Below the pieces are notes generated by a model, which was not told the origin of the DNA, searched no databases, and saw nothing but the letters and a program-made list of their open reading frames with translations. This document shows positions 13,690-56,919 of a stretch of DNA of 64,000 bases, piece by piece. Made by a program: the position numbers and the translations under genes. Within the stretch, counting starts at the first letter, position 1, and the number at the start of each line of letters is the position of its first letter. This DNA comes from Dicyema japonicum. Taxonomy: Eukaryota > Dicyemida > Rhombozoa > Dicyemidae. The stretch covers positions 392,746 through 456,745 of the forward strand of contig RDEW01000043.1 of NCBI GenBank assembly GCA_011109175.1, given 5' to 3'.

Positions 13690-14705
13690 CTCCCCAAACC
13701 ACATCGAGGACAGTAACTTATATCCGTGGACATCACAAAAGCGTTCGACTCAGTCCCAGGAAACTCTTAACAAAGAAAATATTTGAAACCAACATCCATC
13801 CGAACCTGAAACTTTGGCTTGGAAACTTCCTAAATGGAAGACGAGCACAAGTACTCTGCAACAACATCAAATCAAGATCTCGCTATTTCCCAAATGGAGT
13901 CCCTTAAGGATCCCCACTATCGCCAGCCTTTTTCAATCTCTACATAAACAACATGCCACAAACCTGTAATAAAAGCTGCCTAATCCTTTTTTATGCCGAC
14001 GATATTATTCTTGCCTCCAAGGACAGAACTATTCAATCAACGACTCAGTCCGCTCAAGAAATGCTTGACAAGTTGGAACTATGGCTGTCGAAGCGGAGAC
14101 TCGACGCATCAGCAACAAAGTCTTCTGTCACACTGTTTACCACTTACAAAAAACAGCTCTGTGTCGAACCAAAAATCTTTATGAAGAACGAGGCTATTTC
14201 TATTAACAAAACACCGAAGATTCTGGGAGTCACCTTCGATCAGGGACTCACCTTTATCCGACATGTTGAGAACATTGCAACTTCAGCTCTGAGGAAAATG
14301 AGAATTTTAAAAGCGCTCTCAAAAACACTTAGAGACCAAATTGGTGGCCTTGCCACGATTCATGAACAATTTATCCAACCCACGATGACGTATGCAAGTC
14401 CTTCGTGGGCAATGCAGATTTCACGATCCTTCTCATTGAAACTATCCGCAATCGAGGAAAACGCAGTAAGGATAATTGGACCAGAACACAATATCCAGCC
14501 CATTGAAAATTTCTTAATCAAATTACAACTGAAACTCTTAAAAAAAGTCTAGTTTACCGAGCTGCCCTCTATTCCATACACTATCGAAATATCTACAATC
14601 ATACAGAAATTTTGAGCCGATGCCATGTCCAATGAAAAAAGCTGTTCAGGATTTTCGACCCTACCGGACTCGTCCTCTCCCTTGTCGGTCTGGGATTACT
14701 TAGTT
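13690..14705 (+). pseudogene. Jockey-like LINE, RT catalytic core and thumb
   Basis: The plus-strand reading gives ISVDITKAFDSVPRK (about 13720), NFLNGRRAQVLCNNI, NGVP.GSPLSPAFFNLYINN with one stop at about 13905, then an open frame of 199 codons (13953-14552) with LILFYADDIILASKD (catalytic YADD), KTPKILGVTFDQGLTF and QFIQPTMTYASPSWA. It ends near 14705 in a degenerate tail. It belongs with the 2A-bearing copy at 62346-64000. Confidence 0.85.
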
Positions 14706-20479: not shown

Positions 20480-23093
20480 CAGATGCCATTGATCACGCAC
20501 TGTCCTCTGACAGTTGGGAATCCTGGCTAAAACTTATATGCTTTGCACCTGTCGCACTCGGAATACCTACAACGGAATCTGAGGACAATAATAAAGAAAC
20601 AAACTCCCGACTCAACTTATCCGGGAAACTGAAACGAAACATAATGAATTTTAGCTGTCATAACATACACGCAATACTTGAACATCCACTTAATGTCAAT
20701 GAGGTCGAAACCTGAGGAGCATTCATCAAAGATGCCCCCAACAAACTAAAGGAGAGAGTAAACAGGAAACTTCTGGAAGGCGACGTGCGGGCAACCTTAC
20801 GAGTTATCACATCCGATGACACAGTATTGTCTTGTACTCCCGAGGTTCTAAATACCTTAATACTAAAGCATCCAGATGCACCGACTGACTATGAAAAGTT
20901 TTTGAATCCTGAAGGAACCCAGGAGATAATCATTACTGAATCCGAAGTGCGCCACGGAATAACTTCCTTCGCGGCTAGCAGCGGTGGAGGCTTGGAAGGG
21001 TTACGTCCTGGCCATATTAAGGACCTTACGTCCACTTACACCTCGGAAGCTGGACGCTGTCTTGTCAAATCAATTACGGACCTAATCAGAAAAATGGTTA
21101 ACGGCGACATCCCAAAATATGCCAGAGAATTGCTCTTCTCTGCAAGGCTACTTGCTTTCAAAAAACCCAACGGAGGAATCCGCCCCATTGCGGTCGGGAA
21201 CTATTTTAGAAGACTTGCAGCAAAAGTAGCATCGACCATGGTGAGCCGACAACTCGGAGAGGAGTTCTTTCCTAAACAAATGGGTGTTAGTATCCAGAAC
21301 GGATGTGAGGTTGCGGTTCATGCAGCAAGGCGTTTCTTCACACAGAAAAATATTTCAAATGAATGCATTGGAATCAAGTTGGACATAACGAATGCCTTTA
21401 ATTCTCTCAGAAGAGACGAAATTATGAAAACGTGTTGGAAGAGGGCTCCAAAGCTTTTCCCTCTTGTCAATCTATCCTATGGGGAAGATACGTCTTTGGT
21501 TTTTGAAAATGAAATTATTAAATCAAAAACGGGTGTACAAGGAGATCCGCTCGGACCTCTATTATTTGCCTTGACCATTGATGAGGTTGTGAGTCAATTG
21601 ATGCTCAGCTAAATCTCTGGTACCTCGATGATGCCACAATTGGAGGATCGTTCAAAGAAACATACAATTCATTACGTAAAGCGTTACCCGCTTTAAAACA
21701 TTTGGGCTTGGACATCAATGTTAACAAATCAGAGCTAATAAATGTCTCATATCCATACACCGACTTCCTCTCTATCAAGGAGTCTTTTAACGAACTGCTT
21801 CCTGGGATCCCGACTGTGCCAGTTGATAAATTATATTTCCTCGGATGCCCACTCAGCGAAGAAGAACTCAAGAACCATCTACTTTCCAAAAATGAAGAAT
21901 TAACACGCCTTGCGAAAAGATTGTCATGTCTCGACTCTCACACATCTTTCTTCCTGATGAGAAACAACATCGGACTACCCAAGCTTTTATATCTACTCCG
22001 ATGTTCACCCTGCTACGAACAATATGACATTCTACTTTCAATAGACAAGTCTCTCAAGCAAACAGTTGAGTCACTAATTAACGTCCGCTTCGACGAACTT
22101 GGTTGGAAACAATGTAAGCTTCCCTCTGGATTTGGGGGTGTCGGAATGAGATCGGCGCTGGAGGTTGCGTACCCGGCATACCTATCGTCTCTCTCAAGCT
22201 GCAGCCATTTGACACGGCAAGTCCTTCATAACACAATTGGACTTTGCTGGAATGAGTCATTTGACGAAGCTTGTCGGAAATGGAACGGGTCCGGACTCAA
22301 AATCCCCGAAGACACAACGAAGCAAAGAAATTGGGATGACATTGTCTGCTCCAAAATTTTGGAAGACCTTAAAAAAGAAGCAAATCAACATCGTCTGGCT
22401 TGTTTGGTGTCAGCTTCAAGTAGAGGGAGTGGAGCATGGCTTGGTGCAATACCTTGCCCAAACCTCGGGACCTTTTTGGACGACGATTCTTTGAGGATTG
22501 GAATCGGACAAAGGCTGGGACTAGACGTTTGCCAGGAGCACCGATGCCGATGCGGGAAAACAGTCGATGCGAAAGGATTGCACCCGCTGTCCTGCAGAAG
22601 AAGCGCCGGAAGGGGACCACGTCATGCTGCTCTGAATGATGTGATCGTCAGAGCTCTGAAGGCTTCAGGCTTCCCAGCACAGCTTGAACCAGTGGGTCTT
22701 GATCGAGGAGATGGGAAGAGACCTGACGGGATGACCCTTTTCCCCTTCACGTCTGGAAGATCTTTGGTCTGGGACGCAACTTGCATAGACACGTTCTCAA
22801 GCACGAACATTTTTAAATCGGTTCAGACACCTGGAGCAGCTGCTTCGACTGCGGAAAACCTAAAAATCAAGAAATATTCTTGCCTCGGGGATCGCTACCG
22901 ATTTACTCCTGTTGCGACCGAATCATCGGGAGCCGTTGGTCCAATGACGGCTGAATTCTTGCAAGAACTCGGAGGATTGCTTGCCAGAAAGAAAAGGGAT
23001 CAACGAGAAGGGTTATGGCTAAGACAAAAGATCGGAATAGCCATACTCCGAGGGAACTCGTTCGCAATCCACGCAGCAGGCTTCCTCAACTGA
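20480..23093 (+). pseudogene. RLE-type non-LTR retrotransposon, nearly intact ORF
   Basis: About 870 codons are open apart from one stop (TGA near 20715) and one single-base frameshift near 21600. N-terminal part (from about 20485) LSSDSWESWLKLICFAP. RT motifs: GGGLEGLRPGHIKDL, LLAFKKPNGGIRPIAVGN, IGIKLDITNAFNSLRR, TGVQGDPLGPLLFAL, and YLDDATIGG with the catalytic YLDD at about 21624. C-terminus: knuckle CRCG...LHPLSC, then PDG...WDATCIDTFS, a PD-(D/E)XK-type restriction-like endonuclease, ending FAIHAAGFLN. Only Asn-Leu-Trp precedes YLDD on the far side of the frameshift, so very little is lost. It is 5'-truncated and starts next to TTTTCAG. Confidence 0.88.
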
Positions 23094-23678: not shown

Positions 23679-26516
23679 TCACTCACACTCATCTTGTTGG
23701 ATCAAACATAAACAATCAGCCAAAATCTTTTTACAATCACACCCCGAAAACATCATATCTGAGAGAATAGACTCATATCGCCTCATCATCCTATCATACA
23801 ACATAACACCCACCTAACTGCCTCGGTGGTGACTTTACACCAATTCAGTATAATTTGACCACTAATCATCCGAATGTGCTTAACCAGGGCGTCCTCACTT
23901 TCACACTAAAACTAACTCAGCGCTAAATACAGTAAACTCCTTATTAAAATCCACGTGCTCGAATGAATGGCGTCGTGACATTTCTAGTCCATCAGACGAA
24001 TCAGTGAACTGTACCTCTGTCATGGGGGTTGATGACGATAACTCAGGGATGTGTTTTTCCTAACATATCAGTCAAATTATCACCAGGATATGAGATACCA
24101 GAGACCATTTCTTATGGGAAGTGAGTCCGCATTCATCCATGGACAGCATCCCCCACTATAAGACAGTTCATTTATATGGGCGGTGATGACATGATTCACC
24201 CTGGCAGATGAGCTTCCAAACCTCCTAACCATCCATTAATTCAACCAACCTCCTGCATTTATCCCAGGGACACTCCAGTAAAAGATCTTTCCCTTCCTCG
24301 GAAAAGTAAGAACCCACGTGGGTTATAATATCAACTGAGCCACTCTCAGAACCAATATCTGAGTCCATTTCCCCTGGTTTAAGAGTAGTCTTAACTCCAA
24401 CGGATGAACCCTCCGTCTCAGAGTTTCTGTCCTTAACAGGGGAGTAAGGAACGTAGACTTGACTTCGTTTTGGTGGATTCTCAGATAGAAATGAATGTGA
24501 CTCCCCATCACACAGTCCATTAACTTCCTCAATTGGGGGAATCGTTATCCGTTTAATAGAATATTTATTCTTATTGATCTTTTCGGTCAGTAAAGAATCC
24601 ATCAACTCTGGAGATTTTACCGTCAGGACTTGGTTTTTCTCTTCCCTGTGTTGAAGTCCATAGAAACAGGTTCCCCCAACCAACTTGACTTGGGGGAATA
24701 CAGACCACACAAACAAGCAAAAAGGTGGTGAGGGACACCAATAAACTCGATTTTCTCACAAAATTTCCGATAGAACCAAATAAACTAGAAACAACAGTCT
24801 TTGAGTTTTCCACGACCTGGCACGTGTTCATCAACCTGAAAGCTATAGATTAATTATATACCACGTGCGTGTCATCTCAACAGTTTCGGTGTCCAGAGTA
24901 ACACCACCAGACATATTAACAGGAAATTCACGTTTTTGCGGAATGTTTTGAGGTAAGGGATTGTCATAAGTAACAAACCGAACTTTGTGTTCCCCAAATT
25001 TGACTTGTTCAAAATCAAATAAGGCCAACTTTGATCTATCAATCCTCAAAAACTCCACCAGAACGACTAAAACTCAATAAAACTGAGATAACCGAGGAAA
25101 TCCTCAACTTTGATGAGGATTTCTGCAATTTTAGGACTAATCCGGTTCAGATTGTGAAAAAATTCAAGTCCGTTGAGAATAACAGCAATATTTGTCCTGT
25201 TTTCGATAAAAATCTCACAAATTGATTGCACAAACGAAATTGTAAGTAAATCCTCAATAAAATCTTTATTTTGAGGGGAATTGCACAACCCACTCAAAAT
25301 TTGAATTCCTAACAGTAATTTACAATAAAAACCTTTAATTATGACAGATAGCTGGCGGTTTTTGATGTTTTGAGGGTCCAAACACTGTAAAAGCAACAAC
25401 TTAAAACCAAAGGGCACGCATTTTGAAAGATTCTCTCCAAAATGAACCTGAAATGATAATTTACAAGCAAACGCGAAAAGAAGCAATTTCCAATGCGCTT
25501 AAAGCAATCATTTTGAGTGTTTTCGATCCATTAAATGAAGCCAAAAGCAACAGTCTCAGTGCATTATCATGCTTTCCTATCAATGAGAGGTTCCAGTCAT
25601 CAAACATTGAATTATTTAAGATTTTGAGAATCTGAGTTTACAACAAGAATAACCTTATTTGTAAAAGTTTCTTGTCTCTTTCTTACAGTAGAGTTAATAC
25701 ACTCAACCCTCTGCTCATCCCACAAGCCATTAACAGCGAGACATTTCACAGTTTCGTAATCATCGGTTGTCAGCCTCCAAAACTACGAAAATCCTCAGAT
25801 AAGCCAACCTCAGGGAAGCTGACAAATCGGTGGGAGTTCCAATGACGAGAAAACACCAAATCGTAGGAACGGTCCTGATTAAATCCCAGCCATGAAAGTA
25901 TAATGTCAAACAGCCGTTTACACTTTGTCAGATCGATCCTGGGTAAAGGAACTTCGCTGGTCATTAATAGACAGCAATTTATGGCGAAATCAACGGAAGA
26001 TGACACACCAGAAAGCAGGGATAACTCCAAATGGAAGCTTGGATTTATTAAGTTAGTCGCCTCAGCCAGTCCAATCTCTTTTCGTTGAGCATCTTTGATT
26101 ATCGAATTAATATTTACTGTCAATGTACAGAAAGTTGTAGTTATATGTCGTAGGGAGAGTGAAGAACAAGTCAACTTCTCTTCTGTTTTCCAAATCGTAT
26201 GAATCGTCGGCATTCCAGGGATCTCTGTTCTCGAGACCGATCAGGTACCTCATAATATATTAGAAAACAAACCGATTGTAAATTTGTCTTAGATAGTTAT
26301 CAATGCCCAAGGATTTTCCAATCAATCCGATTGATTCAGCCACTTCCTTCCATTTCTTGCGGGAAACGACAGACTGGTATCCCCCAAGCATCTGCACCTT
26401 GTTGTAAAGAAGATACAAGTCAATTTGTACTCCATTTACAGTCGGCAGGTGCACAATTGTAGTTCTAAAGCAGTAATTTAAATGAATGACAATGAAAAAT
26501 TAAAATGGGCGCGCAT
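23679..26516 (-). CDS. ARID2: ARID2-like subunit of the PBAF chromatin remodeller
   Basis: Fifteen exons on the minus strand give about 825 residues. Exons: 26516-26491, 26464-26273, 26248-26118, 26092-25809, 25782-25654, 25631-25473, 25447-25093, 25066-24862, 24835-24814, 24784-24681, 24645-24250, 24224-24084, 24059-23931, 23905-23814, 23790-23679. Most introns are 22-29 nt. Domains in order: ARID (DLYLLYNKVQMLGGYQSVV); helical repeats (ELSLLSGVSSSVDFAIN, QRVECINST, LRLLLLASF); a poorly resolved RFX-like segment (24.6-24.86 kb); a C2H2 finger CPWDKC-x12-H-x4-H split by an intron; a second finger ending HILEKH; and a C-terminus with VKHIRM and LADCLCLI. The order is that of animal ARID2, minus its long Gln-rich middle. 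The second finger needs one base more than the sequence shows. ARID helix 1 looks absent or sits in an unrecognised exon. An alternative intron 5 is 55 nt with donor GTAAGA. Confidence 0.85.
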
Positions 26517-27179
26517 TTTGAGTGATCCGATGTGTGTCACAAATTAAGTTTTTGCCGGCAGTTTAGGAGGTTAAAGACAAAAAACTAATGGTAAATATGA
26601 GACGCACGAAAAATTAACATTTAATATAAAATGTGGTTAATAAAGCGCATGCGTAATGATATTAAAATAATACCGTTGCATCCTGTTAATAGTAAACAGG
26701 TCGTTGTAAAACTTTGATCTCTCTGGTCCCACTCTTTCTGTCATCAAAAACAACAACAGTCCTAATAAAGATTTTTAAGAATAATCTATTTTAAATATAA
26801 AATTCATTATTAAAATTAACTAATTAAATAATTATGTAACATTATTGTCAAATGTAACATTCTCCCTGCCACTGATGAAGATTACCATTATCAAAACACC
26901 CGGTTGGGAATGAAGTGATGTCTGCAACGGTAGGACGTGCCACGAAAATGGACCTACTTTCCACCTCTTTTCGGAAGCCTGTAATGGACTATTTAAGGAT
27001 GGTCGTCACATGCAGACGTTCTCATGGGTTCATTCATTGGATTAGTTTGTTATGGCTGCTTGTGCTGAACTTGCCGAAAATTTTCTAGTGGCGCTCCCTG
27101 GCGACGAGTTCTGGCTTCGAAGTTAGCTTCAGGAGAATATTTTCTGGATCACTGCATATGGATGAGGGGGCTCTACTGG
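26517..27179. other. ARID2-like 5' flank and unassigned sequence
   Basis: The first few hundred bases upstream of the ARID2-like ATG presumably include its promoter; no TATA box or other element is clear. Bases 26867-27170 show weak similarity to 58290-58400 (shared TTCCACCTCT and GTAATGGA.TAT..AGGATGG), suggesting a decayed dispersed repeat. Confidence 0.45.
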
Positions 27180-39039: not shown

Positions 39040-41800
39040 CAATTTAGCTTAGTCCAAGCGTCGAATCTGATTAATCCTCGGTTCCACAATGTACTTGACT
39101 GAGGGGAGAATCCTGTCCTCTTCTGTAATCAGGACATCATGCAGCTTTTTCCCCAAAACTAACTTTATTGCTGACCTTCTCGAATTTTCTAGAATTAACA
39201 TTATTCTTTCCTTTTGTCGAAAGAAATACCATGCTTCACATCCGTATACTAACTCTGGTAGAATAATCTTCATGAAGATAAACAAGAAGGTCTCCAAGCT
39301 AACGGACAATTTGCTTGTACAGAGAATCGCTTTTAACGCCTTCTTCTTTCTTTGTCTAATATCCTCCATGAAAGAACCTTCCCCATCGATCCCGAGGTAG
39401 CGGAATGTACTTCGGAATACCAAGTGAGTAGGGCTGCGCATGATGTCTCCGTAGGCGACCAACCCTCAAGTAGCTGGACTTCTCAGTAGAGAGTCTCATC
39501 CCTCTCTTGGAGCACAAATCCTGCACTTGATCAATGAATAACTTGATTCTTTCTTTTGATAATGTTGACTTCCCAGACGTATCCGTAATCAGAATATCGT
39601 CTGCGTATATCATCAGTTTGGTGTTCATATCCGGCGGAATTGGGAAGTCTGACAAAAGCACATTGACAGAAACGGGCTCAAGACAGAGTCCTGTGGAACG
39701 CCCCTCTTCAACAGAATATTTTTTGACATATTTGCTCCAATAAGTTCTCTGGAATTCGGTCCTGTCAGGAAGTCCTTTATCCATATGAAAAGTTTCTTTT
39801 GGATGTTAGCAGCCACTAGCCTTGATAGGAGGGTTTCGTGACACACGATATCGAAAGCCTTGGACAGGTCCAAACACACCAGGTTGACTTGCCTCTTGAA
39901 TTCCAGACCTCTCAGTACCATCGAATGCACGTGGTGGATACAATCCGTGCAGGATTTCCCAGGTCTAAAGCCACATTGTTCCGCGAGGAAAAAACAGCTC
40001 TCTTCCATGTGTTCGTTGAGTCTCTTTAAGATGATTCCCTAAGGAATCTTGAAGATAGAGAAAATTAGGCTGATTGCCTACAGTTAAGGGGGTCTTTCCC
40101 CGACTTTCCTGGTTTAAGTATCATCCTGACAATAGAGGTTTTCCAGCGTTTTGGGATATATCCATGATCAATGCTTGCGTTGAATAAGTTCTTCATCACG
40201 AGCAGCAGATCCTCTAGGCTTCCTTGAACAATCTCATGCTAATATGGTCATGTCCAGGGCGTAAGCTTTTCATGTTCAAATGGCAATCACAACATTTCCT
40301 GTCGTTATCTTTAAATCAATATCTTTGAGATGGTCCGGAAAATAGGTAAAAAGTTCTTGTGAAGCTCCCAGCTCTTCCCTCGCGATCAGCTCCATTGGGT
40401 TGATTCCCTGGATACGGTCTAGTTGCTTCTTAAAGATATCTGGGACTTCTTCCGTAGAACATGATCCACCTTCTGGCTTGGTCAAAGAGATTCTCATATC
40501 ATTTCTTTTTTGGCCAGTTATTCTTTTGTAGATCTTACAGAACGAGGGGTCTTTGGTGTTTACTTTCTTGCCTCGACTCTCCAACATTGTTCTTGAGTCA
40601 GTCTTGTTTCCTCTTCAATGGCTTTTTTGATTAACTTCACTTGGCCGGTTAATGTAATCCGGTCCATCCAATCGACACATCTTCTGAGTTTGTTCTTCAG
40701 TCGGTTTCTTTCATTAATCATAGATAATGTAGAAGAAGAGAAATTGATGCTCTTCCTATGAATAGGACCAGAGAATCTCCTCCTTGTTTAAAATGATAAG
40801 TATCTCTCCATCATAATTGAAAAATCTCTGTCTATGTTGTCAATATCACTTTTAGAATAAGGTCCAGCCTTCCAGTTTTTGAGGAGCCATAACCTGTGAA
40901 CACTGACTCCGTAGTATCCGGAGCCAGGTTCAGTGTCATTTCTTTAGGGATGTGGTCGCTCCTGATGTCCCACATGATCATCGGTCTCCCCACATAAATG
41001 TAGAGTAGTAGTGACAGGAGGAACACACCAAGCAAATCTCCACCGTGATGCGAGAAGTGATTTGGCTCCTCCTACATCATGATCTCAAAGCCAGTCTTAT
41101 CACTCGATTTTCTTAGGCTGATTCTATCCTTGTTGGTCCCAAGGCATCCATATTTAATGTTCTTCGCATTTAGATCTCCCATTAAGACAGACATATCGCT
41201 TCCTGTGTATAATTTTTCAATTTCTGTGGAGCACCTTCTGAGGTCCTTTGAGTACATCCCTCCAACGTGTATCCAACACTCACAACAGCGCTCCTCGACG
41301 GAAACAAATTCACAATCTGTATTCATAATAACTTTTGGCTCACGTATCTGTAGAACATCACTGTAGACAATGTGGTTCCAGTACCAGCCTCTGCACCTTC
41401 TACCCATGGTATTTCTATAGAATTATATCCCTGTAGTATTGTAGTGTTGGTCTTCTTCACCTTGGTCTCGTTGACCACCAGGATGTCAATCTTAGTGGAC
41501 GACAGGAGTAGTGCCAGGTCATGACGGCTCTTCCTCAGAAATCGGGCGTTCACCAGCACTATCATCAGGTTTCTTTTCAATTTTCTTTAGGTGGCCCGGG
41601 CTCTTCATGGCCAGGTCCACCATTCTTCGTAAATCCACCCCGAGTATACCGCTTAGTTCTTTTAGTCTTGATGTTAATTCCTCCAGTTCTTTTGCGATTC
41701 TACCTGGTATCTTTCCTCTGGGTAGCCAGGCCGATTCTCGTGGATGAAGAGCTGGTTCATTCATGTTAATCGGCTCCTCCGACCTTGCCAATTATTTTTT
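39040..41800 (-). pseudogene. Jockey-like LINE, near full length, frame-broken
   Basis: Read on the minus strand from a small ORF1 (41791-41519) into an APE endonuclease: LVNARFLRKSRHDLALLL and VVNETKVKKTNT (41440-41570), LMGDLNAKN (about 41170), WDIRSDHIPKE (about 40960). Linker with PSFCKIYKRITGQKRND (about 40540). RT: EQCGFRPGKSCTDCIHH, LVCLDLSKAFDIV, GVPQDSVLSPFL (39690-39990), and KLMIYADDILITD with YADD (about 39600). Thumb: FRYLGIDGEGSF, ILPELVYGCEAWYF (39250-39400). There are about seven frame breaks. It is the most complete APE-type LINE of the window. Confidence 0.85.
41519..41791 (-). CDS. Small ORF1 of the Jockey-like LINE, 90 aa
   Basis: Starts MARSEEPINMNEP and has a Leu-rich, likely coiled-coil stretch ELEELTSRLKELSGIL, then DLRRMVDLAMKSPGHLKK and an acidic end. 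It overlaps the start of the endonuclease frame by about 60 bases (ORF2 begins near 41580 in another frame). No zinc knuckle is present, unlike the gag-like ORF at 47312-48264. Role inferred from position: an RNA-binding or multimerising ORF1 product. Confidence 0.5.
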   Translation of the reverse strand: MARSEEPINMNEPALHPRESAWLPRGKIPGRIAKELEELTSRLKELSGILGVDLRRMVDLAMKSPGHLKKIEKKPDDSAGERPISEEEPS

Positions 41801-42613: not shown

Positions 42614-45600
42614 CAGGGTTGTTAGATTTAAATCATTAGATTTTAATCAACAAAAAAATCAATAATTTAAATCATTAAAAATCATAAAAAATCATTTAAA
42701 TTTTTTTAATGTCTGGACGAAAGCGTGATGCCTTGTGGGTTCACTTCGATAAACGTTTTATTCCTGGAAAGACCGGGAGTCGAGCCAGATGCCGTAATTG
42801 CGGGAAGGAGGTACAAGGTCTCGTATCTAGAATGAGACAGCATCATTTGTTATGAAAACTAATATTGATATCCCTGAAAATCTGTCGAAACCTGAAAGTG
42901 ATTTGATCAGAGAATTCCTCCCAAGGACGAGGGACCAGTCTTTAATCATTTTCGTTACTACGACGACTTCATCGAAGAAAAATATGATATGCATCTCTCT
43001 AGATACATATATTCCAGTAACACTCTTTTTGCTGCTGTAGAACATCCGGAATTTGTCAAATTCGTCCAAATGCCTCTTCCTGGGTATCGTTTACCCTCTC
43101 GTCATCAAATTAATGGTCCATTGCTCGATCGTGTGTACGACCAAATACATGAAGACTGTTGGCAAAGACTCCAGGACAAGACAGTGTCTATGATGTTGAA
43201 CAGGTGGAGTAACATTCATAACGAACCTGTTATTTGTGTGTCAGTTGTAACATCGGATGGAGAAAGCTATCTAATTGATACTGTGGACACTTCTGGATAT
43301 AGCCACACCGCGGAGTATCTTCAATCTGTTGCTTTGGTCCAGGGGTTCTCAACCTTTTTAGATCAAGGGCCAAATCGATAATTAAGAGTATTTTTGCGGG
43401 CCGCACAAAAAAATATTTTATTTGATTAAAGAAAAAAGGCTTTATTACGTAATAAGAGAATGAATGTGAGACTTGATTTTGCTTGGCGTCTACTATTTTA
43501 TCGAAACGAGGAGTAAAGTTCGAAGACGATGTACATAAAAGTTGAATTATCAGTCAATCGATTTCGATACTTACTTTTTATTCGCGTAAGTTTACATTAA
43601 AGAGCTTCACATGGATACGTTGATCCGAAGACTGATGCATTTTTTTGAGCATTATCGTCCAAGTTCGGATATTTCCATTGTGGAATTCGACTCCAAAAAT
43701 CCAATAGTTCACTTGACTTAAATAGCGCGGTAAGTTGTAAATCTGCCTGCATTTCAATTAGCTCCAGCTGATATACATATGGAGCGGTTGCAGCATCTGT
43801 TTCCATAGGTGACGAAATATTTTCATAATAGGTAGAGCTTCTTTAAAATCATTAAAACGTGTTTCGAATTCATCGATTAAGTCACTAATAACAGAGGTAT
43901 ATTTTTCATATGATCCATCTTCCCTGTGGTTGGAAAGTATTGGAAAATGAATGGTAACTCTACTTGCAATTTGTATTTTGAAAAGGTGTAGTTTTTCGAT
44001 AAATGCAAAAACCAGTCCGTATAATTCATGACATAGTTTGTTCTTACCCTGCAGATCTGTGGCAATTGAAAACATTTTTGAAAGATCCAAATGTGCCTTT
44101 TCAAGGCAATCACGAAATTCACGGAATATATCAGCTCTTTTAGTAGAACCATGAAAGTTGCGTAGCGTGAGAAATTCTTCATAAATTTTGAAGTCAGGCA
44201 TGACACCTCGAATAAACACAGCCATTCGTTCTGTATCACTAATATCTTGTGAGTAGAATAGTGTACGAAAAAGTTGGATTCAGTGAGTAGCTGGCATTGA
44301 ATATCGTCAGATATTCTCTCAATTCTCAGAGTAACTGTATCGTTGCTTAGCTGTAAGTTTATAACATTTTTTTAATTTCTGAAGAACAACATTTTTCAGT
44401 AAATATGAATAGCTTGCTTAAATTCTCTATCTGAATACGGCTTCATATTTTTTGCAAGTAGATGACAAATTTTGAAAGAAGCTATTGTAGCGGATCTTGA
44501 TGACATGGACTGTTTAAACAAAGTGGTTTGTAGTTTGCGATTTGATTTCATAGATAGAAATTTGATTTTTCTTGATTCACCTTGAAATGAATCATATTCT
44601 GAAGAATGTTTCATATAATACCTCTCGACATTATATAACTTAAGACATCGTATAACAAAATGACAAATCAGGCAATGTGCTTTGCCATTTTCTTCAAAAA
44701 CGAAAAATTGTTCCTCCCATTCGTGGTTAAATGCACGATTTTCTTGAATTATTTTTCTACTTCTTTTAACACGATTCCAGGCATTACAAGCAAAATTAAT
44801 TAAAATTTAATACAAAAAATATTTAATTTAAAAACAATAGTTAAAATATGTAAAAATTTTTTAACCATAAAAAGTTTATTGTACGAAACAAACAGAAAGA
44901 AAAAGCACAGTTAAAATCCGGCTGCATTATGTAAAATATGTAATATTTTTTTTATAATTTTAAGCGGGCCGCACCAAAATCCTGGAGGGCCGCCGTTGAG
45001 AATCCCTGCTTTAGTCTCTGCAAAGTCCGTCGAGCAACGGTTTGGATGTAAAATCGGGAGTCTTGTAACGGACAATGCTGCCAACATGACTAAAATGAGG
45101 CGGATAATGATGCAAGATGACGATGAAATTATCACATATGGTTGCTCGGCACATTATCTCAACCTTCTCTTAAAGAATGTCGAAGTAGCTGACGTTAAAG
45201 AAACCATCGTAAGAATAAATAAATACTTTCGAAACGTCCATCTTCCAGCGGCATGGTACAATTCTGCTGGAGAAAAAATACTTGTTCTTCCGATTGATGT
45301 TCGCTGGAACACTTTATCAGATTGTTTTCAATCTTATCTGGATAATTGGTATATAATTTTGAGAATTTGTGAAAAACACAGATCGAATATTGATGCAGAG
45401 ATTGCTTCTAAAGTACAAAATATTTGCCTAAAACGACGCGTCTAAGAATATTTGCGGCTGATTAAACCAATTGCTGTCGCTTTACACAAAATTCAAAATG
45501 ATTCTACGACGATTAGTCATGCTGTAAAAATTTGGAAAGAACTTGAACAGACTTATAGTGACTATGAATGTACGACTAATTTAGAAAAAGTGAAAACTCG

Positions 45601-52188: not shown

Positions 52189-53583
52189 ATGTCTTTACTC
52201 CGACTTTTCAAACCCAGATTAGCCAGACTAAACAAGTTTGTCCTACTACGGCCATTTCAGCTGTCCAAATCCCTCTCCACTGTGAAGGATAAGAGCAAGA
52301 AGGATCCTTTTTTGTACACTGACAACAACTATGTGACCCCAGTACGTGCTATGAACGAGTATCTCCTTAAAATGGAAGAGCTTGACCAACTACAGAAGTT
52401 TTACAGACGTAATCCCTACGACCAGTCATATCCCTTCATCGTCTACCTGCGGCACGATGTCGAAAACTTGGCCATACAGAAATTCGGATCATACGAAAAG
52501 TTAACTATTGAAAGCTCAAAACACAAGTTTCTCCCGAATAAGTCAAAAACTGTCACTTTCTATGACTTTTTGAAGTCCGGAAGTGGAAAAGTCGTGACAA
52601 TGGCTATTTTTGTGAATTCTGTAAACTTTATCTTCAAATCTGCCTCATATTATTATTGTGGGTCTCACTCAATGTTCGCCGAAGCCGTCCATTCCCTCGT
52701 GGATACACTGAATCAGCTAGTATTGGCCATTGGACTCCATCATGCCATGAAAAAACCTGATTTTTCACATCCTTATGGGTATACTAACCTTCGTCACATC
52801 TCTTCCCTGATCGGCGGAGTGGGGATTCTGTTTTTCGGTACTGGACTGACTCTTTATAACGGACTTTTGGGACTCCTTCACCCAGAGTCTCCGACTGATA
52901 TGGTGTGGGCTATGACTGTCCTCGTTGGCTCCTTCCTCTCTGAGTTTTCTTCGTTTGCTGTGGCTTACCGTGAAATCCGACAGTCTTCGAGAAACAGAAA
53001 TATCTCATTCAAAGACTATGTAATGATGGGGATTGATCCGAACGTCACAGTGGTCTTACTGGAGGACATTGCGGGGATTGGTGGTGTCTGTATTGCTGGG
53101 ATTTGCATTCTCTGTTCCCACGTGACCACAAGTATTCTGCCTGATATTATTGGGTGTGTCACAATTTCAATGCTGCTCAGTGCTGTGGGGATTTTTATTG
53201 TCCGACAGAATGCGGAACTTTTGATGGGAAAATCGGTACCTTTGAAGGTTTACAGACATCTTCGGAACGATTTGGAGAATGACCGAGTTATCCGTGCAAT
53301 TCACGACATCAAAGCAATCGAATGTGGGGAGAATAATATTCATTTCAAAGCCGAAGTTGATTTCGACGGATATCAAATTACGGATATTTATTTAAAGTCC
53401 ACGGATTTGGAAAAGACTTTACATGAAACCAAGGATATTGACACCACTGATGAGCTCAGAGCATTTCTGTTGTTTCATGGAAAGAATTCCATCGACCAAC
53501 TCGGACAAGAGGTGGATAGAGTTGAGAAGATGCTAAAGGCAAAACACCCAAATCTTAGGCACGTTGATCTGGAGGTACTTTAA
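52189..53583 (+). CDS. SLC30A9: SLC30A9 (ZnT9), mitochondrial zinc transporter, 464 aa
   Basis: Single uninterrupted ORF. The N-terminus (MSLLRLFKPRLARLNKF ... LSKSLSTVKD) is an Arg-rich, acid-free mitochondrial presequence. Next come VTPVRAMNEYLLKMEELDQL and the family's DNA-binding-like region. The cation diffusion facilitator membrane domain follows, with the metal-site motif AEAVHSLVDTLNQ, HPYGYTNLRHISSLIGGVG, LLEDIAGIGGV and about six hydrophobic segments (residues ~140-345). The C-terminus KAEVDFDG..., DQLGQEVDRVEKMLK and NLRHVDLEVL matches animal ZnT9. It exports or exchanges zinc from mitochondria. A poly(A) signal AATAAA lies at 53600-53605. The lack of introns contrasts with its neighbour pinin. 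Confidence 0.97.
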   Translation: MSLLRLFKPRLARLNKFVLLRPFQLSKSLSTVKDKSKKDPFLYTDNNYVTPVRAMNEYLLKMEELDQLQKFYRRNPYDQSYPFIVYLRHDVENLAIQKFGSYEKLTIESSKHKFLPNKSKTVTFYDFLKSGSGKVVTMAIFVNSVNFIFKSASYYYCGSHSMFAEAVHSLVDTLNQLVLAIGLHHAMKKPDFSHPYGYTNLRHISSLIGGVGILFFGTGLTLYNGLLGLLHPESPTDMVWAMTVLVGSFLSEFSSFAVAYREIRQSSRNRNISFKDYVMMGIDPNVTVVLLEDIAGIGGVCIAGICILCSHVTTSILPDIIGCVTISMLLSAVGIFIVRQNAELLMGKSVPLKVYRHLRNDLENDRVIRAIHDIKAIECGENNIHFKAEVDFDGYQITDIYLKSTDLEKTLHETKDIDTTDELRAFLLFHGKNSIDQLGQEVDRVEKMLKAKHPNLRHVDLEVL

Positions 53584-55455: not shown

Positions 55456-56919
55456 ATGGAGATAATATCAACTAACAAAGTAGGAAAGCAAATTTGTTTT
55501 AAGGGTTTATGTATACAAAGAACTCGGTGACAAAAAACTATATAATTTTTAAATGTGTGAAAAAATCTTCACAAGGATGCAGAGGAAGCCTGAGAACAGA
55601 TCATAATTTTGAATTTCCCAAAGAAGTAATTTCTCACAATCACGAATTTGACGAAAGTCAAATAAAACTAATGAAATTGTGCAACGAAGCAAAACTTATT
55701 GCTAAAACGAGTCAAGAAAATCCCTTACAAATCTATTCAAAGGTTGTGTCTCAATGTGAAACAGCAACCAGAATTATTCTCCCTTCTGCAGATTCTTTTA
55801 AGCAAACATTAAGGAATCAACGCTTGTCTCTACCTATTCCAAAAAATATTTTTGATATCGGAGATATTCCATTTTCTTTAACTTTAACTCTTGGTCCAGA
55901 TTCAGAAAATTTTTTAATTTATGATAATCATAGAAAAACCGATAAATATTAATATTCAGCACCAAAACTAATTTACGTTATTGGCGAATTAAAAATCATG
56001 GTATATGGATGGAAATTTCTCCATGGCACCATGTATCTTCAAGCAAATCTATTTTATCAGGATTCAGTTCAATGCCAGTGCAATTACAGTTATTTATGGA
56101 ATATTACTTTCTAAATCACGAAAGATTTACGAAAAATTTTTTGAGGCTATTCAACATGCAATTCATAATTTGAATTTGGAATTTTGTCTTGAAACTATTA
56201 TGGCAGACTTTGAAGATTCGGTATTTCGAGCTGTCCTTGCAGTATTTGGGAGACGAATACATATTAGAGGATGTTATTATCATCTAAGACAGTCAACCTG
56301 GAGAAAAATTCAAGAATTGCATCTAGTAAAACAATATAAAGAAAATATTAATTTTAACATTTTTTGCGCAATGATAGACGCTCTTGCGTTTTTACCCATT
56401 CAAGATATGGAAGAAGGAATAGAATTCCTAATGAATAATATGCCAGAAAATGTTCCAGATTCAAAATATATATTAGATTATTTTGATAGAACATATGTTC
56501 GCGGTTATTATCGTTGCTTAAATGATCGAGAAAACCCCTTAGCTGTTAGAATACAGCACATTGCTCCATTGTTTCCTCCAAATTTATGGAATGTGTATGA
56601 AGCTACACTCAATAATAAACAAAGAACAAATAACTATTGTGAAGGGTGGAACAATAAATTATACAATTTGACGGGATATCGTCATCCATCGATATGGAAT
56701 ATTATATCGTCATTCCAAAAAGAAGAAAAAATGACGAAAACTATTATTGACCAGGATTCCTTTGGAAAAAGAATTTCAACAAGAACAAATAAAAAAACGA
56801 TTGATAGACAAAAAAGGCTTTTAAATATATGTCTGGATCGCCAGGACGGAAAAAAAACAGTAGGAGAAGCCCTAAAAGCAATTGCATGGAATATTAAATA
56901 TTCTTTTGATTCACATTAA
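55456..56919 (+). pseudogene. FLYWCH-MULE transposase, two frameshifts from intact
   Basis: From ATG 55456: MEIISTNKVGKQICFKG, a one-base shift at about 55505, then the FLYWCH zinc finger YTKNSVTKNYIIFKCVKKSS ... CRGSL ... SHNHEFD (Cys-Cys-His-His). The frame breaks again near 55952-56005. It then opens over 305 codons: MDGNFSMAPCIFKQIYFI (first catalytic Asp), ETIMADFEDSVFRAVLAVFG (second), GCYYHLRQSTWRKIQELHL (C..H block), RTNNYCEGWNNKLYN, ending at TAA 56919. It is the youngest-looking DNA transposase here. Confidence 0.88.

Follow-up and report, generated by a model that had tools for sequence, protein, structure and literature searches.

On the minus strand of the window, i.e., the whole stretch of 64,000 nucleotides analysed here, lies what we hold with high confidence to be an ARID2-like gene of a dicyemid, interrupted by ordinary U2-type GT..AG introns that have shrunk to about 24 nt and by a first intron of 209 nt. 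Dicyemids are microscopic parasites of octopus and squid. The window belongs to contig 130 of a genome of 191 contigs (64.67 Mb), and about 24 nt is the usual intron size in the genes that we sampled from this genome. The coding sequence runs from an ATG at 26744 to a TGA at 23679 (minus strand) and comprises 16 exons, 15 introns and 835 codons including the stop, a delimitation based on the exon model, matches in PDB and Pfam, homologues and spliced alignments. In order, the introns measure 209, 24, 25, 26, 22, 25, 24, 26, 26, 22, 25, 35, 24, 25 and 23 nt, i.e., 13 of the 15 fall within 22-26 nt. A preliminary description of the locus had correctly placed the end of the gene at 23679 but began it too late, as exon 1 lies further upstream and extends to 26744; its claim that tiny introns occur throughout fits the 13 short ones but is too strong for a gene with a first intron of 209 nt.

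In other animals ARID2 is a subunit of the PBAF chromatin remodeller, and the likeness of the dicyemid product to this protein, proposed earlier from the letters of the sequence, was borne out over most of its length by several kinds of match. Human ARID2 residues 37-470 (PDB) are collinear, in one stretch, with residues 6-443 of a draft product that has 503 residues and lacks exon 1 (E 2e-25), and a C-terminal piece of the product matches human ARID2 residues 758-851 (7vdv_Q, E 2.6e-5). The Pfam ARID domain (PF01388) scores 63.7 bits in the full model against a cut-off of 24.1, and Arm_2 reaches 14.8 bits on the same product, under its cut-off of 20.4. A protein database search yielded seven matches at E <= 0.001, the top two being shark ARID2; the other five, from nematodes or sharks or unnamed, carry ARID or RFX domains. 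The ARID, the armadillo-like region and the C-terminal tail are thus all collinear with human ARID2 (7vdv_Q, 7y8r_L); however, the dicyemid model has 835 codons vs 1835 residues in human 7y8r_L, the long middle part is absent, the human RFX domain is without a recognisable counterpart in the model, and identity to homologues is low (about 25%).

Exon 1 (26674..26744, minus strand), absent from the earlier reading, carries the start of the ARID domain and was recognised by its match to the ARID profile. In N-terminal pieces of the product this profile aligns over positions 1-86 with 68.5 bits when exon 1 is included, vs positions 19-86 with 59.9 bits from the earlier start. The first intron (26465..26673, minus strand; 209 nt, GT..AG) is supported by the model and the ARID match, and was picked in both GT..AG spliced-alignment runs that allowed 15-400 nt. 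The 26-nt first intron of the earlier reading, which would share its acceptor, is rejected because the inclusion of exon 1 improves the ARID match; the intron at this place is the one of 209 nt instead.

The preliminary description gave intron lengths without coordinates, and their placement on the sequence was done in this analysis (all positions are on the minus strand). The introns of the model that were recovered by spliced alignment both with 15-400 nt and with 20-30 nt allowed are the 24-nt intron before RYL (26249..26272), one of 26 nt (25783..25808), the 25-nt intron within the first C2H2 finger (24225..24249), the 24-nt intron within the second (24060..24083), the 25-nt intron before the KHIR tail (23906..23930) and the 23-nt intron before the LADCL tail (23791..23813). 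A 25-nt intron (26093..26117) and two of 26 nt (25067..25092 and 24836..24861) are supported by the model and the 20-30 nt alignment. The same holds for introns of 22 nt (25632..25653) and 25 nt (25448..25472) and, tentatively, for one of 22 nt in an RFX-like stretch (24755..24776), all three of which are lost when frameshifts are made cheap. The model also includes a tentative 24-nt intron (25309..25332), in frame and without a stop, that the alignment did not demand; it is missing from the earlier list, and this segment may be a further intron which that reading overlooked. Between the two C2H2 fingers, a 35-nt segment with GT..AG ends (24156..24190) is doubtful as an intron, as reading through it scores higher. 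With this placement, 11 of the 14 lengths listed previously (24, 25, 26, 22, 25, 26, 26, 25, 24, 25 and 23 nt) fall in order on introns of the model and are all recovered by the 20-30 nt GT..AG alignment, whereas the first (26 nt) does not and those of 29 and 35 nt found no confirmation.

The alignments were made with a spliced aligner written for this analysis, and the ARID2 query was a profile of six of the seven proteins matched in the database. When one band of GT..AG intron lengths was allowed at a time (20-30 nt and seven other bands), the alignment scored 377.1 with 20-30 nt introns, vs 119.7 to 212.5 in the seven other bands and 107.1 when intron-free, and control scores were 50.3 on the opposite strand and 56.0 on reversed sequence. 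The 20-30 nt run recovers 12 of the 13 short introns of the model and adds two more. Other settings told against the model. With GT..AG introns of 15-400 nt allowed (a minimum of 15 nt had been suggested in the preliminary description), the aligner retained only 6 of the 13 short introns and turned to longer ones that pass over poorly conserved stretches. With cheap frameshifts 9 of the 13 were kept and four shifts were placed, and with any ends and lengths of 1-60 allowed the gaps were scattered, too noisy at 25% identity. As this low identity makes ARID2 unclean as a sole test, the conserved PRP8 was used instead.

Against Lingula PRP8, 1895 codons were aligned, 1642 of them identical, with 31 GT..AG introns, of which 30 measure 20-26 nt and one was scored as 38 nt in the run without a frame shift. 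Admitting one shift beside a run of T (cost 30) brings all 31 introns to 20-26 nt, and lowering the shift cost to 20 gives two shifts and 30 introns, each of 20-26 nt. The length-band test gave 8531 for 20-30 nt vs at most 1862 in other bands. With any ends and lengths of 1-60 allowed, 32 gaps were placed, 30 of 20-26 nt and the others of 2 and 5 nt; 17 of the 32 can be moved to exact GT..AG ends with every base kept, 15 cannot, and the score was 8531 with GT..AG demanded vs 8591 with free ends. Among kinesins (15 loci on 12 contigs, taken from 70 matches listed), 66 of the 86 GT..AG introns measure 21-30 nt when 15-300 nt is allowed, and an unconstrained run with distant kinesin queries placed 68 of its 166 gaps in 20-30 nt, the remainder being spread. 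The introns in the paired domain and homeodomain of Pax6 measure 24, 23 and 25 nt and are of phase 0, 1 and 0; this gene has five introns in the shift-tolerant run and seven in the run without shifts. The short intron class recurs across the genome.

It could be argued that the ARID2 locus is a decaying pseudogene, in which random indels happen to have GT and AG close by and so look like introns, and the apparent frame break at 24145-24143, the four shifts placed when frameshifts were cheap, the transposon remnants within the window and the low conservation of ARID2 would all suit such an account. However, indels arising at random would for the most part be short and dispersed, while the extra DNA here forms a 22-26 nt class with GT..AG ends; the same length class is found in PRP8, conserved as that protein is, and the frame of the model is open over 835 codons, the RFX-like stretch and the part between the fingers being doubtful. 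We therefore consider decay highly improbable. As far as sequence can tell, the single narrow length class, the GT..AG ends and the presence of the class in unrelated conserved genes argue for true introns of about 25 nt, as was first proposed, rather than for a random-indel pseudogene. The locus is very probably a real dicyemid gene cut by introns of only about 24 nt, and we infer that these tiny segments are removed from the mRNA.

Two places in the model are less secure. In the RFX-like stretch, the earlier lengths of 29 and 35 nt fit the GT..AG segments 24813-24785 and 24680-24646, over which we tentatively prefer the one 22-nt intron at 24776-24755. With regard to an RFX-type winged helix, Pfam gave no family at E up to 10 for either exon reading of this stretch, and neither reading clearly beats shuffled sequence. 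Near the C-terminus, both C2H2 fingers align in the shift-tolerant run and the frame breaks between them. The 35-nt GT..AG segment here (24190-24156) restores the frame but deletes part of the inter-finger linker, and it scores 460.9 as an intron vs 480.7 for a read-through with a 2-nt shift at 24145-24143. We think it fairly probable that the animal itself carries an intact gene, the break being an indel of the assembly consensus, with no 35-nt intron: the higher-scoring read-through keeps both fingers of the ARID2 homologues, Pax6 shows two small shifts against the Pax6 of Dicyema acuticephalum (1070 vs 971), and the shift beside the run of T in PRP8 is likewise favoured at a shift cost of 30 (8548 vs 8531). 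The 35-nt segment nevertheless has GT..AG ends and keeps the frame, and lengths of 38-56 nt also occur among the well-flanked introns of the kinesins. Given the similar shifts in Pax6 and PRP8, small assembly indels in these two genes and in ARID2 are plausible, real lesions being the alternative. An assembly indel between the fingers is a sub-question, and is compatible with tiny introns spliced by the major-class machinery.

Besides the ARID2-like gene, the window holds a 464-codon open frame at 52189-53583 (plus strand) with a cation-efflux domain (PF01545, 105.8 bits), which we take to be SLC30A9-like and which is, unlike the ARID2 gene, intronless over that length. Transposon-like remnants were seen among ten scanned frames at 13953-14552, 20785-21612, 39625-40008, 42989-43381, 44996-45445 and 56005-56919, and one of them adjoins the ARID2 gene; their domains are reverse transcriptase (PF00078; twice over the cut-off and once just under it), DUF659 (twice) and MULE (once), the last three matches all being below cut-offs. 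An Rfam scan of the window gave no match at gathering score, and a bacterial-type tRNA scan of the window found none.

The affinity of the genome is best seen in Pax6, whose top match, among the 120 matches listed of 7572, is D. acuticephalum Pax6 (E 5.3e-119, 415 bits, 60% identity over 95%), with the next match listed at 334 bits. Judging from this protein sequence, the genome is that of a dicyemid, but not of D. acuticephalum, since a Pax6 only 60% identical points to a different species. Small genomes are found in several parasitic animals, and at 64.7 Mb the present one is small too, as would be expected if it came from some other miniaturised animal, e.g., an orthonectid or a myxozoan, in which tiny introns had evolved independently. 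We regard such an origin as extremely improbable, given that D. acuticephalum is by a wide margin the nearest of the Pax6 matches listed, that a median of 57 nt is stated for orthonectid introns (PMC6543705), and that PRP8 of the orthonectid Intoshia linei is not a close match (78% vs 81% for Lingula). The dicyemid attribution, which the preliminary description had suggested from intron size, accords both with the nearest Pax6 and with the published introns of such size in dicyemids.

The splice signals were examined in a pooled set of 97 introns, made up of 50 from the kinesins (out of the 66 that are well flanked, among 86 in all), 30 of 31 from PRP8, 13 of 15 from ARID2 and 4 of 5 from Pax6. 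As introns were kept only if 20-30 nt long, their mean of 23.9 nt (SD 1.7) describes that class and not all introns; 29 of the 97 are multiples of three. G stands just before the intron in 62 cases, A or T at +3 in 89 and G at +5 in 21, and the 5' site reads GTAAGT in a single one. A branch-point consensus of the YTRAY type was tried and showed no enrichment (24 of 97 vs 24.5 in shuffles). By position, A is in excess at -7 (52 vs 34.2 expected, z 3.9), and excesses are also seen for T at -6 (z 3.0) and C at -5 (z 3.3); since these come from about 64 tests of this kind, they are best taken as a lead. Inside the introns, A+T amounts to 95.5% in PRP8 and to 71-75% in the other sampled short introns. 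The AT richness of the PRP8 introns is perhaps linked to splicing efficiency, by analogy with Paramecium, where intron GC is described as tied to it (PMC12862383).

Tiny introns have been known from dicyemids since 2007, and the ARID2 case is genuine but not new, i.e., it is one more gene. In the parts of the literature drawn on here, Aruga et al. 2007 (PMC2222250) give dicyemid introns as 26.2 +/- 1.9 nt (n = 16) and the Pax6 intron phases of D. acuticephalum as a=0, c=1 and d=0, and add that those positions are common to many animals, so that only the lengths are telling. The published Dicyema introns resemble ours in their length of about 25 nt, likewise in conserved genes of bilaterians, and in the phases in Pax6; the pooled introns are slightly shorter (23.9 +/- 1.7 vs 26.2 +/- 1.9 nt), in a sample that was cut to 20-30 nt. 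Zverkov et al. 2019 (PMC6543705) state a median of 27 nt, with about two thirds of dicyemid introns under 30 nt, and cite Ogino et al. 2010 for 40 genes. For the D. japonicum genome (67.5 Mb with 4.1% gaps, 36.7% GC), which the present genome resembles in size and GC, Lu et al. 2019 (PMC6736024) report a mean intron of 38.2 nt, a value that covers all introns, whereas the pooled mean refers only to the 20-30 nt class. According to Irimia and Roy 2008 (PMC2483917), the 5' site of dicyemid introns is very weak and a branch-point signature is lacking, and both traits are shared by the pooled introns, in which GTAAGT and G at +5 are scarce and YTRAY is unenriched, but which do show the mild A excess at -7.

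As for the machinery, 22 of the 25 U2 snRNA matches in the genome exceed the Rfam cut-off, and GUAGUA is present in the eight copies read; U2 is multi-copy across many contigs, and its 5' half is near-invariant in these eight. Nine of ten U6 snRNA matches are over the cut-off, with ACAGAGA in the four copies read. None of the 11 U1-like RNAs passes the Rfam cut-off (best 69.0 vs 69.5 bits), and three of the four copies read carry ACUUACCUG. The roles of these U1, U2 and U6 motifs are textbook knowledge. SF1 was found in the genome, and a candidate for the large subunit of U2AF is present as pieces on one contig, none of which reaches the whole-protein cut-off. One U12-like snRNA was observed on contig 68 (163471-163599, minus strand; 85.4 vs a cut-off of 53 bits), and from it the minor spliceosome may persist. 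A search for U12-type introns with RTATCCTT..TCCTTRAY gave 21 matches vs 17 in the reversed control, i.e., no clear excess.

We postulate that the tiny introns would be removed by major-class splicing through intron definition within the 20-26 nt span. The mild surplus of A at -7 suggests that the branch adenosine sits 6-7 nt (or up to 8 nt) from the 3' end, which would leave about 16 nt between it and the 5' site. By our own reckoning this is close to the minimum within which both U6 and U2 could pair, and U1 and U2 would have to act sequentially and not side by side. A more specific possibility, which we advance tentatively and consider rather doubtful, is that canonical U2 and U6, a near-canonical U1, SF1, the U2AF candidate and the U12-like RNA splice introns most of which, among those sampled, are too short for U1 and U2 to sit side by side and have almost no branch signal, and that these introns are recognised by their size and AT content, the branch adenosine lying 6-7 nt from the 3' end.

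Similarly small introns occur outside the animals. Those of Paramecium are typically 23-26 nt long, GT..AG and AT-rich like the dicyemid ones (a median of 24 nt is given for P. bursaria in PMC12862383), but Paramecium is a ciliate and not an animal. Human ultrashort introns of 43-65 nt are said to pose a steric problem for an oversized early spliceosome (PMC8363638); the problem is the same, but they are about twice the dicyemid length and exceptional in the human genome. The ARID2 case, from another dicyemid and in a gene not named in the literature drawn on here, supports the view that introns of about 24 nt are workable in animals. It is also a warning for annotation: in genomes like this one, many genes would be broken up by gene finders that require introns of at least 30-50 nt. 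As the snRNA cores look ordinary, the size limit seems to be set by the assembly of the spliceosome and not by changed snRNAs. If recognition by size and AT content were true, this genome would be a natural experiment, made in an animal, on how small a working intron can be and on U1 and U2 engaging sequentially rather than simultaneously.
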